In this document: piece after piece, positions 20,009 to 44,131 of the stretch
Layout of the letters: every line of letters begins with the position of its first letter
Position numbering within the stretch: position 1 is the stretch's first letter
Origin: Candidatus Melainabacteria bacterium
GTDB taxonomy: Bacteria > Cyanobacteriota > Vampirovibrionia > Obscuribacterales > Obscuribacteraceae
DNA length: 64,000 nucleotides
Assembly (NCBI GenBank): GCA_012965515.1
Contig: DTSE01000214.1
Span: 1-64,000 of the forward strand
Reading direction: 5' to 3'
The notes under the pieces: generated by a model
Databases searched by the model: none
What the model saw: only the letters and a program-made list of their open reading frames with translations
What the model was told of the DNA's origin: nothing
Position numbers and translations under genes: made by a program

Positions 20009-20740
20009 ATGGGAAAACTAGCAGGCAAAGTTGCGGTCATCACGGGCGCAACGTCAGGCATGGCACTCGCGACAGCAAAACTTTTTGTAGAAGAAGGTGC
20101 TTACGTCTACATCACCGGTCGCAGGCAAGGACATCTGGACGAAGCTGTCAAAGCAATTGGCAAGAACGTAAAAGGTATTCAGGGCGACGCTGCAAATCTC
20201 GCAGACCAGGAGAAGCTATTCGAGACGGTCAAAGCAGAAAAAGGAAACATCGATATCCTTTTCGCGAGTGCTGGATACGGTGAATTTCAAGCATTGGGAA
20301 GCATCACGGAAGAGCACTACCACAAAATATTCGATCTCAACGTGAAGGGCACGCTCTTCACTGTTCAGAAGGCGCTTCCACTTTTGAAAGATGGTTCGTC
20401 CATCATCATCAACGGTTCTGTCGCAAACCTCAAAGGAATTCCGAATTTCAGCGTATACAACGCAAGCAAAGCAGCGTTGCGCTCATTTGTCCGCACCTGG
20501 ACTAATGATTTGAAGGAACGAAAAATACGCGTCAACCTCCTCAGCCCAGGACCAATCGATACTGCAGCATTGGATGGTATCAGTGACGAAATGCGTCAAT
20601 CGTTTATCGATCAAGTGCCGCTCGGTCGCATCGGTAAATCAGAAGAAATTGCTACTGCAGTTCTCTTCCTCGCATCGAACGATTCGAGCTACGTGACCGG
20701 AATTGATCTCTGTGTCGACGGCGGATTCGCGCAGGTTTAG
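20009..20740 (+). CDS. SDR-family oxidoreductase
   Basis: A classical short-chain dehydrogenase/reductase of 243 residues. The Rossmann NAD(P)-binding motif is TGATSGMA (residues 13-20), FASAGYG corresponds to the NAG motif, the catalytic Ser is in NGSVA, and Tyr and Lys are in YNASK. The end CVDGGFAQV is typical. A GGAGAG ribosome-binding site precedes the ATG. The gene is monocistronic: its own promoter with a TetR-type operator lies upstream and a strong terminator downstream. This arrangement is common for SDRs induced by reactive electrophiles or quinones. The substrate is unknown. Confidence 0.92.
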   Translation: MGKLAGKVAVITGATSGMALATAKLFVEEGAYVYITGRRQGHLDEAVKAIGKNVKGIQGDAANLADQEKLFETVKAEKGNIDILFASAGYGEFQALGSITEEHYHKIFDLNVKGTLFTVQKALPLLKDGSSIIINGSVANLKGIPNFSVYNASKAALRSFVRTWTNDLKERKIRVNLLSPGPIDTAALDGISDEMRQSFIDQVPLGRIGKSEEIATAVLFLASNDSSYVTGIDLCVDGGFAQV

Positions 20741-20760
20741 GGTCAATCGCCGATAAACTA

Positions 20761-20792
20761 GAACGACCGCTTCTGAACAGGCGGTCGTTTTT
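20761..20792 (+). terminator. Rho-independent terminator of the SDR gene
   Basis: AACGACCGC (20762-20770) pairs with GCGGTCGTT (20781-20789) around a ten-base loop, followed by a run of T. It lies 22 bp after the SDR stop codon. Confidence 0.85.
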
Positions 20793-20992
20793 GCATTGCA
20801 AGGCATTCCGCCGCGTGACAATTTCCAAGAACAGATTACAGTTTTCGTCTTCCAAGTCAGAATTCAAATCGAGCTGGATAATTAACTCATGCAACCGCGG
20901 AACTTGCATAACGGAATCTTTCTCATCGCCTCTGATGATTGAGCCAAGGAGATTTTTAGCTCGAGTAATTCGTTAATATCGGTCATAAGTGT

Positions 20993-22012
20993 TTAACCAA
21001 GTGCGGCATCTACAGATGTAAATCGCCACCTTCCATAAGGGTTGTAGAAAAGGTCATCCTGATCGTAGCCGGTGCATTCTTCCCAAACAACTCGAAAGCT
21101 TGGCCATTCCAAATCTGGCTGAAAGGTGTAACCAGACGCGAACGTTCCATCTTCGCATTCAGCGAGGAGGTAAAGGCAAAACACCTCAAATAAATAAACG
21201 ATAGAATCGGTTGCTGACTCCGTCTTCCTTGTCTGTTGCATTAACTCGCGTGACACAATCACGTCTGGCTTTCCAAGCAAGTGCATCCCGCAGCTATAAA
21301 AATCATCTTCTAAAACTATAGGAAACTGCACGAACGCATCGAACAAGGCAGACCAGAATAAAATCCACTCGCCATCGGCTCCGCGTTCTGCTTGCCCGGC
21401 AAGTTCCAGCCAACGCTGACGTGAGTGTGCAATACCTGAGCTTTCGCACTTCATAGCGATTGCACCAGCTTCTAGCAAACGACTGCCCACACGCAAAAAA
21501 TGATAGGCTCTATTAACCGCAAATCGAGCCGGAAAGTTATCACTCAAAATATAGACAATCGACGAGTGCTCAGCGATGCTTCCTAACTCTAGTTTTGTCA
21601 GAGATGGACCGCGACCCAAATCGGCTTTCTCAAAAGCATCAACCATCGCCGCATCGTAATCACTAATTTCAAAATCTGTTTCTTCCTCTGCAAGAATCCC
21701 CTGAAGGTTCGGTACGGAAGCCTGCGTTGCGGGCAAACACATAACTATCTTGGGAAGATAACCCCTTCCGGTAAATTCGACTCGCAGTTGATTCCAATCG
21801 GCCCAACAATTTTCTGGATTTACGTCTCGGAAACCACGCTTCTCTTCTAATTCTTTAGCAACCTCACTCGGCACCATTATGCACGGTGCTTTATCGCGAA
21901 TGGCAATCACCTCTCTTTCTGTGAGGTGACTACCTTTCTGTTCTTCCCCTAATGCCAACATCTGGCCGAGCAGTGGAACAAAGTTGGCAATGAGTTGTTC
22001 GTCTTCAGTCAT
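20993..22012 (-). CDS. DUF4261-like protein
   Basis: A soluble 339-residue protein. The central and C-terminal regions have the DUF4261 pattern: HSRQRWLEL, then LFDAFVQFPIV, then YSCGMHLLGKPDV, then FEVFCLYLLAECEDG. Such proteins occur widely without assigned function, often beside SMI1/immunity-like genes. No signal peptide or membrane segment. It is transcribed away from the following plus-strand gene. Confidence 0.55.
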   Translation of the reverse strand: MTEDEQLIANFVPLLGQMLALGEEQKGSHLTEREVIAIRDKAPCIMVPSEVAKELEEKRGFRDVNPENCWADWNQLRVEFTGRGYLPKIVMCLPATQASVPNLQGILAEEETDFEISDYDAAMVDAFEKADLGRGPSLTKLELGSIAEHSSIVYILSDNFPARFAVNRAYHFLRVGSRLLEAGAIAMKCESSGIAHSRQRWLELAGQAERGADGEWILFWSALFDAFVQFPIVLEDDFYSCGMHLLGKPDVIVSRELMQQTRKTESATDSIVYLFEVFCLYLLAECEDGTFASGYTFQPDLEWPSFRVVWEECTGYDQDDLFYNPYGRWRFTSVDAALG

Positions 22013-41330: not shown

Positions 41331-42410
41331 CTACTCTATTTGCTCAAAAGTGCACTGCTTCGGACTCTTGTCTGGACGCCAACGCAGCAGTTTAGTGCCG
41401 TGACGGAAACGTCCACCGGTAACATGATCGTAGCGGACTTCCACCACCAATTTGGATTTCAGTGGCACCCACTCTGTACTTCTTTCGTTACTCCAGCGAC
41501 TTGGTGCCCCCGGTATGTTTTCCTGAAACGACTCTTTCGCTTTCAGTTTTTCAAGTTTTCCGGTTAGTTCTCTCTTTTCCACAGCGGACAACGAAGATGT
41601 GAAACCGACATGGTGCAAGCGCCCATCATCATCGTAAAGGCCCAACAACAACGAACCGACGAGTTTAGAATTGGTACCATACCTGAAACCACCAACGACG
41701 CAATCAGCAGTGCGCATTCGCTTCACTTTGATCATGCCTTTGCGGTTGCCGGTTTGATAGGGCAAATCAAGATCTTTGGCAATAACACCGTCAATTAGAG
41801 AACCAGTCGTGCTCAACCAATTGTTTGCATCGTTCAGCGAGTAAGCAACAGGACTCAGCGATATATCCTTTCTCTGCTTTAAAAACTTGAGGGCAAACTT
41901 TTCAAGTTTTTGTCTTCGGATGCGAAGGCTTTCTCCGGTCATATTCTCTCCATCTTGAGTCTTGAGAATATCGAAAACAATATAATTGGCGGGGATTTCG
42001 GCAGAGAGCTTACGAACCCGACTTTCCGCTGGGTGGATTCGCTGCAACAAATCATCAAACGAAAATACATCACCGACCCGAATCACCAATTCTCCATCGA
42101 GCACAAAGGTATCTGCTTTCAAAGTCGATAATGCGCTAACAACTTCAGGAAAGTATCGGGTCAAGGACTGACCGCTTTTGGACCGCAATTCGATGTCCTC
42201 TCCATCTCTAAACGCAATACAGCGAAATCCATCCCACTTAGGCTCATACTGCCACTTATTTCCGGACGGCAGTTTGTCGGTCAACTGGGCTTCCATCGGA
42301 GCGTAGTCGTAGTCGAGGCGTGCAGATTTTGAGGAGGAACTAGTGGTTGACTCAAGGGGTGTTATCGTGCGTCCCTTAGTCATTGACTTTGTTGATGCTT
42401 TTATTGCCAT
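41331..42410 (-). CDS. ATP-dependent DNA ligase
   Basis: A nucleotidyltransferase-type ligase of 359 residues, similar to the LigC/LigD ligase domain. Motif I is EPKWDGFR with adenylated lysine K58; DGELV is motif III; IDGVIAKDL, and then IKVKR (motif V), follow. The OB domain (residues 230-350) includes GSLLLGLYDDDGRLHHVGF. It seals nicks in DNA with ATP, for repair. It starts 17 bp after the PolX gene and is thus in one operon with it. The first 30 residues form a Ser/Thr/Lys-rich tail. Confidence 0.93.
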   Translation of the reverse strand: MAIKASTKSMTKGRTITPLESTTSSSSKSARLDYDYAPMEAQLTDKLPSGNKWQYEPKWDGFRCIAFRDGEDIELRSKSGQSLTRYFPEVVSALSTLKADTFVLDGELVIRVGDVFSFDDLLQRIHPAESRVRKLSAEIPANYIVFDILKTQDGENMTGESLRIRRQKLEKFALKFLKQRKDISLSPVAYSLNDANNWLSTTGSLIDGVIAKDLDLPYQTGNRKGMIKVKRMRTADCVVGGFRYGTNSKLVGSLLLGLYDDDGRLHHVGFTSSLSAVEKRELTGKLEKLKAKESFQENIPGAPSRWSNERSTEWVPLKSKLVVEVRYDHVTGGRFRHGTKLLRWRPDKSPKQCTFEQIE

Positions 42411-42427: not shown

Positions 42428-44131
42428 CTAATTTGGTTTAACTGTGTTTCTAAACTTGGAAAAGCTTTGAGCGTTCAAAACTTGAGATCTGCGAATGCCA
42501 GCACGTCTTGCTTGATGAATTCCGAACGGAAGATTCTGCAAATCGGAAGTTGCATGCGCATCAGTCGAAATCACAAAGTTGAAACCCAAATCGCTGGCAA
42601 GCTTGGACCACTTTGGTTCGAGATCTAATCGGTATGGATCACCATTTATCTCAATGGCAACCGGTGAGTCCTGAATCGCTTCCAAGATTTTCTCAACGTC
42701 GCATGGAATAGGATCTCGCCTCAAGACAAGCCTTCCAAGCGGATGTCCCCAAATCTTAAAATGTGGATTGCGCAAACCATTGAGCAGACGCTTCATCATC
42801 TTCGACTCATCCTGCTTATAGCGAGAATGAATACTCGCGATGATTACATCAAACTGTTCCAAGATTTCGTCAGGATAATCCAGTTCACCGTCAGCAAGTA
42901 TGTCGCACTCGGTGCCTCTCAAGAGTTTGATTTTTACCTTTTCCTGGACGCGTTCGATCTCTTCCCATTGTTCCTTTAGACGATCAACAGTTAAACCTCC
43001 AGCATAGTGCGCTGTGGGCGAGTGATCCGTAATGGTCATGTATTTCATGCCCATGCGCTCGGCGGCGCGCGCCATCTGCTCAATTGAATGCCTGCCGTCC
43101 GAATAAGTGCTATGACAATGAGTCATTCCCTGAATGTCGTCATAGTGAATCAAGTCGGAGAAATCATCTTTTCGCGCGAGTTGAACTTCACCATTGTCTT
43201 CTCGCAATTCAGGCGGAACAAAAGAAAGTCCAAGCTTCTTGTAGACATCCGTTTCAGACACAACTTCTATCTGGCGAGTCTTCGCTTTAAATACATCGCT
43301 ATTGAGAGTAAGTCCTTTGCGCTTAGCTAGTTTTTGCAAATGCAAGAAATGGGCCGGACCGGTGGTTTCCAGCAGCTTGAGCGTGAAATTTTCTGCAATA
43401 AAAAGTTCCACTCTCAACTCATTGAATAACCTCACAGCCGCGAAGTCATCGCTGCTTTCGATGACTTCGGTAACCAGAGGAAATTTCTTGAATGCCTCCA
43501 GCGCAGAGGAAACTACTCTTGGCTTTGCAACGAATTGAATCTTCTCAACCGCCTCATACCAGCGCCGAACATCTCCCGTCACCTCAATCTCCAGACCTCG
43601 AACTGAAGAACGCATATACGAGATAATTTCTTCTGCGGTCTCCAACGCATCCACAAGAAGAATCGCAGACGCACGCGTCTTCATTCGCTGAATCTTACCG
43701 AGCAGCGCCCGCTCACTGCGCGCCGCGAATCCGGGCACAAGACGCACCTTCTCTTCAGTGCAAGCTTGCTCCAATTCGGAAATCGTGCGAATACCTAGCG
43801 CTTCCGTCAACTTCCGAATCTTGTCCAGAGTCAGACCTGGAATTCGTGACAGCTCGACCGTCCCTTCCGGCACCTCGTCCTTCAATCGATGCAGATATTT
43901 CGACTCACCGGACTGGTAAATCTCCTCAATGGTCTTGGCCAGAGATTCGCCGATTCCTGGGATTGACGTGAGCGTGTGCTCTCGAACGAGTTTGCCGATG
44001 TCCGCTTGCGACGCTTCAATCGCTTTGGCGCCCCTGAGGTAGGCGCGTGCTTTAAATTGGTTTTCGCCCTTGGCACTGAGCAACAAACCTGTCTCGCGCA
44101 AATAGCTGGCAATTTCGAATTTGTCCGGCAT
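42428..44131 (-). CDS. polX: PolX-type protein, intact PHP domain, degenerate polymerase site
   Basis: PolX enzymes combine a family X DNA polymerase with a PHP-type nuclease domain. The order here is normal: an 8-kDa-like helical domain with helix-hairpin-helix motifs (SIPGIGESLAKTI, residues 57-69, and RIPGLTLDKI), a fingers/palm region, and PHP from about residue 333. The PHP metal motifs are intact: HCHSTYSDG (H338, H340), ITDH (368-371), GTECDIL, IASIHSRY, IWGHPLGR and STDAHA. In the palm, however, the two catalytic aspartates expected after GxxRR are K197 and Q199 (EAVEKIQFV), and the third is E242. Polymerase activity is therefore predicted to be lost, while 3'-5' exonuclease/phosphatase-type activity stays likely. 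An AGGAGAA ribosome-binding site precedes ATG 44131. Confidence 0.9.
   Translation of the reverse strand: MPDKFEIASYLRETGLLLSAKGENQFKARAYLRGAKAIEASQADIGKLVREHTLTSIPGIGESLAKTIEEIYQSGESKYLHRLKDEVPEGTVELSRIPGLTLDKIRKLTEALGIRTISELEQACTEEKVRLVPGFAARSERALLGKIQRMKTRASAILLVDALETAEEIISYMRSSVRGLEIEVTGDVRRWYEAVEKIQFVAKPRVVSSALEAFKKFPLVTEVIESSDDFAAVRLFNELRVELFIAENFTLKLLETTGPAHFLHLQKLAKRKGLTLNSDVFKAKTRQIEVVSETDVYKKLGLSFVPPELREDNGEVQLARKDDFSDLIHYDDIQGMTHCHSTYSDGRHSIEQMARAAERMGMKYMTITDHSPTAHYAGGLTVDRLKEQWEEIERVQEKVKIKLLRGTECDILADGELDYPDEILEQFDVIIASIHSRYKQDESKMMKRLLNGLRNPHFKIWGHPLGRLVLRRDPIPCDVEKILEAIQDSPVAIEINGDPYRLDLEPKWSKLASDLGFNFVISTDAHATSDLQNLPFGIHQARRAGIRRSQVLNAQSFSKFRNTVKPN

Follow-up and report, generated by a model that had tools for sequence, protein, structure and literature searches.

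A noncanonical PolX with a decayed polymerase site and a complete PHP site in a Melainabacteria family

Noncanonical PolX proteins, in which the polymerase site is altered, were described as a class by Prostova et al. (2022, Nucleic Acids Res. 50:6398, PMC9226535). The main text of that survey counts 809 altered PolX (27.5%), with 302 triad variants and with their PHP sites intact, and reports several independent origins and an association with NHEJ. The main noncanonical cluster holds most members of the class, not all of them. Deletions in palm and fingers are found in many noncanonical PolX without being a requirement, and in Alphaproteobacteria the commonest operon neighbour is LigD. Two proteins of the class, from Deinococcus radiodurans and D. 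gobiensis, were shown there to lack polymerase activity and to be strong Mn-dependent 3'-5' exonucleases; the survey acknowledges an earlier report of polymerase activity for the D. radiodurans protein, whose triad is AEE, and finds none itself.

Here we analyse a PolX gene in a 64,000-nucleotide stretch of DNA from a Candidatus Melainabacteria genome (phylum Cyanobacteria); this stretch we call the window. The gene, its domains (borders approximate), its active-site residues and its neighbour are as follows.

42428..44131, minus strand: noncanonical PolX open reading frame, 567 aa, ATG start (ORF call and profile matches)
Residues 1-155: N-terminal 8 kDa/HHH region
Residues 156-245: decayed palm
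43541..43543, minus strand: K197, at the first palm Asp position (alignment)
43535..43537, minus strand: Q199, at the second palm Asp position (alignment)
43406..43408, minus strand: E242, at the third palm Asp position, acidic (alignment)
Residues 246-312: fingers/thumb
Residues 330-567: PHP exonuclease domain (predicted activity)
42554..43120, minus strand: PHP active site from H338 to H526, HHHEHHEDH, complete (alignment)
41331..42410, minus strand: LigC-type ATP-dependent DNA ligase, 359 aa, KWDG motif from K58; next gene downstream after a 17-bp gap (profile match)

The protein belongs to PolX over its whole length: its match to NCBIfam PolX NF006375 spans residues 4-565 at 430.8 bits (cut-off 426), and Pfam recognizes HHH_8, HHH_5, Pol beta thumb and PHP domains. 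Its top PDB matches are the PolX of Thermus thermophilus (E 6e-89) and of D. radiodurans (E 1.7e-71), and close relatives come from MAGs titled Candidatus Melainabacteria (85% and 75% identity) and Cyanobacteria (one MAG, 73%). Overall confidence in the AlphaFold model is low (mean pLDDT 71.6, pTM 0.45), with blocks of the palm stretch mostly at pLDDT 73-94 and one at 56. Foldseek ranked PolX structures first, with high rmsd, and we therefore make no claim about the geometry of the palm site. In the 8 kDa region, the window protein has Thr at a column where Thermus has Lys; the family varies at this column, and canonical rows vary too. The column would be that of the dRP-lyase nucleophile, and we do not claim a loss of lyase activity. 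The same genome (G000) encodes a second PolX-like frame of 301 aa (L002:1465-2370, contig C88, about 20637-21128) with HHH_8 and HHH_5 only, lacking palm and PHP, and with a C-terminal part that has no Pfam match. Short frames resembling it occur in G002, G018 and G035.

All nine PHP metal ligands are present in the window protein (H338, H340, H370, E408, H435, H463, E494, D524 and H526), which bears out the sequence-only reading that every PHP metal motif is kept. The polymerase site is different. In MAFFT alignments of 28 and then 38 rows, the columns of K197, Q199 and E242 correspond to the three palm aspartates of Thermus PolX, and in the larger alignment they are D/D/D in all 20 canonical rows. 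The replacement of all three aspartates, also claimed from the sequence, thus holds, and the residue numbers given with it are correct. Other acidic residues in the catalytic positions had been named as what would speak against the claim; we found no substitute acidic residue beside the three positions in either alignment, so this objection falls away. As read from the alignment, charge is gone at two positions and E242 is a conservative swap. An alignment slip that masks true aspartates is ruled out by independent alignments. Assembly error is ruled out as well, because the same decay is found again in 11 other assemblies of the family.

The dNTP pocket is substituted too. The Thermus motif GSARR (canonical GSxRR) reads GDVRR, with S187D and R190 kept. 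The steric-gate column, Tyr or His in 19/20 canonical rows, is E255, and the base-contacting column, Asn in 18/20, is F262. In the fingers motif a one-residue deletion removes the Ser of the cis-peptide 'GS', and the Lys is P259. Changes of this sort are described for the noncanonical class in the main text of PMC9226535, where almost all altered PolX have a hydrophobic residue at the base-contact column.

With a triad that is not all acidic, substituted dNTP residues and the HHHEHHEDH site, the window protein shows the features by which the main text of PMC9226535 characterizes noncanonical PolX, and we therefore regard it as a member of this known class. It further shares with the class the retained 8 kDa domain and the presence of Ku and LigD in the genome. 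It differs in having no palm/fingers deletion beyond one residue, the optional feature of the class, in forming a clade of its own in our tree and in its neighbour, which is LigC-type rather than LigD. The canonical Thermus PolX (PDB 3au2 and others) matches all domains at full length and has a palm of equal length (90 residues in the aligned stretch), yet it carries D/D/D and an intact dNTP pocket, and palm identity is 28%. D. radiodurans PolX (PDB 2w9m) shares the architecture, the PHP ligands and an altered triad that has Glu as its third residue, whereas identity amounts to 22% for the palm and 37% for PHP, and its palm is shortened to 78 residues in that stretch.

We searched 60 genomes, the window's own and those of relatives (36 of them from the window's family), and found matches in 21. 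Intact full-length orthologues are present in 12 genomes, the window's own included, all in its family; matches in eight others (G002, G022, G031, G035, G041, G046, G056 and G059) are weak PHP, partial or HHH-only. In a further genome, G012, the orthologue (L066, contig C9, about 508318-509745) is split over several frames with stops, which could be due to a pseudogene or to assembly indel errors. G004 (L023, contig C227:6561-8231) encodes two PolX, one VQE and one canonical DDD, the latter 33% identical to the window protein. The contig JAJPJO010000386.1 (L030) is titled as a Proteobacteria MAG; its PolX frame and the one in G014 (L009), a genome of the window's family, have equal scores, and the title looks wrong.

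The PHP ligands are invariant in 12/12 orthologues, and an independent survey (PMC12926913) likewise describes the PHP site as more conserved than the polymerase site. The Asp triad is missing from all 12, which carry 11 different triads: KQE (the window and G006), TQE, VQE, SQE, CQE, RCE, EET, EKE, TEQ, NNS and HET. The sequence-only reading had asked whether related genomes share K/Q/E; only the 85%-identical relative does, and a conserved new K/Q/E site is ruled out. Given the variety of triads, the invariant PHP site and a diverged palm, K/Q/E is one stage of a decayed site and not a conserved new motif. Synonymous change was saturated in nearly all pairs and dN/dS by domain yielded little information, so we compared identities with canonical pairs instead. 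In the band of 55-65% PHP identity, palm identity minus PHP identity was on average -33.5 points in the altered family (16/66 pairs) and -5.4 points among canonical proteins (12/190 pairs). This far larger gap at equal PHP divergence indicates that the polymerase part has drifted while the nuclease part was kept; the palm is under relaxed constraint. Six palm/fingers positions are nevertheless invariant in 12/12 orthologues (G186, R189, W191, E193, T257 and H261), and Trp at column 191 occurs in just 1/20 canonical rows. The palm domain therefore keeps some role, and this pattern suggests retention for its fold or as a binding surface.

To place these proteins, we inferred a tree of 38 PolX in which only the N-terminal region and the PHP domain were used. 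A search of 292 genomes of the phylum gave 13 above the family cut-off; the tree took 14 PolX loci from it (L031-L042, L044 and L045) and excluded L043, which is the window's copy, as well as second copies and fragments, L046 among them. From 47 plasmid records with a match, nine were retrieved, hand-chosen for spread. The 12 family proteins form one clade (100/100) separate from the noncanonical PolX of Deinococcus and Alphaproteobacteria, and the full-length tree recovers the same clade (100/100). Forcing the 12 into one clade with four Deinococcus and alphaproteobacterial rows cost 11.9 log-likelihood units (p-AU 0.018), for a group that was named after the tree was seen and that contains no Bacteroidota rows. 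Because of this post hoc choice and the lack of Bacteroidota, an independent loss is likely and not proven; judging from the trees, the Melainabacteria clade probably represents a separate loss of the polymerase triad. Two other altered PolX of the phylum sample, G081 (REY) and G093 (DHE, partial frame), are placed among canonical rows, so losses have recurred within the phylum.

Taken together, we consider it highly likely, at a probability of roughly 0.88, that the product of this gene is a noncanonical PolX which no longer synthesizes DNA and acts as a nuclease that processes 3' ends. Its most likely task would be to trim such ends during the repair of double-strand breaks or of bases. Positioned on gapped or broken DNA by its N-terminal 8 kDa/HHH region and the leftover palm/thumb scaffold, the protein would use its Mn-dependent PHP site to take off 3' nucleotides or blocked 3' termini, and perhaps to incise abasic sites as well. 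Fill-in would fall to other polymerases, for example the LigD primase-polymerase domain of the same genome, and sealing to a ligase, possibly the adjoining LigC. The activity, the pathway and the co-operation with a ligase are what we infer from these comparisons. Of the roles first proposed from the sequence, a pure nuclease is thus well supported, both by the intact PHP site and by the two Deinococcus proteins, for which the main text of PMC9226535 describes this property. A phosphatase fares less well: it is conceivable only as one among the various activities on 3' ends that PolX PHP domains are reported to have.

The neighbouring ligase scores 444.4 bits against PRK08224/NF006078 (cut-off 296), a model named 'ATP-dependent DNA ligase' that we take to be LigC. 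The sequence-only reading had also raised a structural role for PolX with this ligase, and in its fuller form the proposal is that PolX serves chiefly as a structural or recruitment partner of LigC in a dedicated end-cleaning and sealing pair, with the nuclease secondary. The arrangement itself is real, the ligase being the next gene on the same strand 17 bp downstream, and the same kind of ligase follows PolX in G006, G003, G004 and G014, whose PolX identities run from 85 to 53%. Proximity to a ligase gene also has precedent, in the LigD neighbours of Alphaproteobacteria (main text of PMC9226535) and at a Mesorhizobium plasmid locus where ligD is the gene preceding PolX. However, adjacency extends to only 5/12 orthologues: no ligase was found within the 1.0-4.6 kb examined downstream of PolX in 6/12, and the remaining one, G033, offers just 270 bases before the contig end. 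In G019 and G020 a LigC is encoded on a different contig. Strict conservation of the PHP catalytic residues, needless for a scaffold, counts against a purely structural role, and we regard this proposal as very unlikely.

Ku and LigD are found side by side on contig C92 of the window's genome. The LigD frame there (762 aa) has ligase and primase-polymerase domains and no nuclease domain. A LigD_N (phosphoesterase) domain lies apart from them in a separate 318-aa frame (G000 contig C60:14413-14772), which weakens the idea that the PHP domain stands in for the missing LigD nuclease. The genome is 76% complete, and gene absences in it therefore mean little.

Even less probable is that the palm site retains an altered nucleotidyl transfer through E242 and other residues. 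Glu occupies the third position in 8/12 orthologues, including the acidic E242, and the main text of PMC9226535 deems Glu acceptable there and records the polymerase activity once reported for the AEE protein of D. radiodurans. Against this, position 197 is nearly free (K, T, V, S, C, R, E, N or H) and 199 likewise (Q, C, E, K or N), the third position is T, Q or S in 4/12, and the dNTP pocket is lost. That the gene is a decaying relic heading for a pseudogene is the least credible reading, since the broken G012 orthologue stands against intact frames in all 12 full-length orthologues, the window's included, and a PHP-domain dN of 0.057 against saturated synonymous change between the window and G006.

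One might go further and speculate that Melainabacteria lost the polymerase independently of Deinococcus, Bacteroidota and Alphaproteobacteria, and that the full-length palm came under a new constraint (GxxRxWxE and TxxxH invariant, triad drifting) as a module that binds DNA or the ligase, within an end-cleaning and sealing unit made up of the two genes for PolX and LigC. We hold this extended scenario to be doubtful.

The novelty is modest. The kind itself has been known since 2022, and what this family adds to it is a Melainabacteria clade that has a full-length palm and a LigC-type ligase as neighbour. A word search of the main text of PMC9226535 gave no occurrence of Cyanobacteria, and our literature search for Melainabacteria and PolX found no paper. 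The NCBIfam name 'DNA polymerase' is probably wrong as to activity, and the annotation would be corrected to a protein that is very probably a 3'-end-processing nuclease, not a polymerase. The finding extends the polymerase-to-nuclease class of PolX to a Melainabacteria family and lends support to the view that what bacteria retain of PolX is its nuclease.
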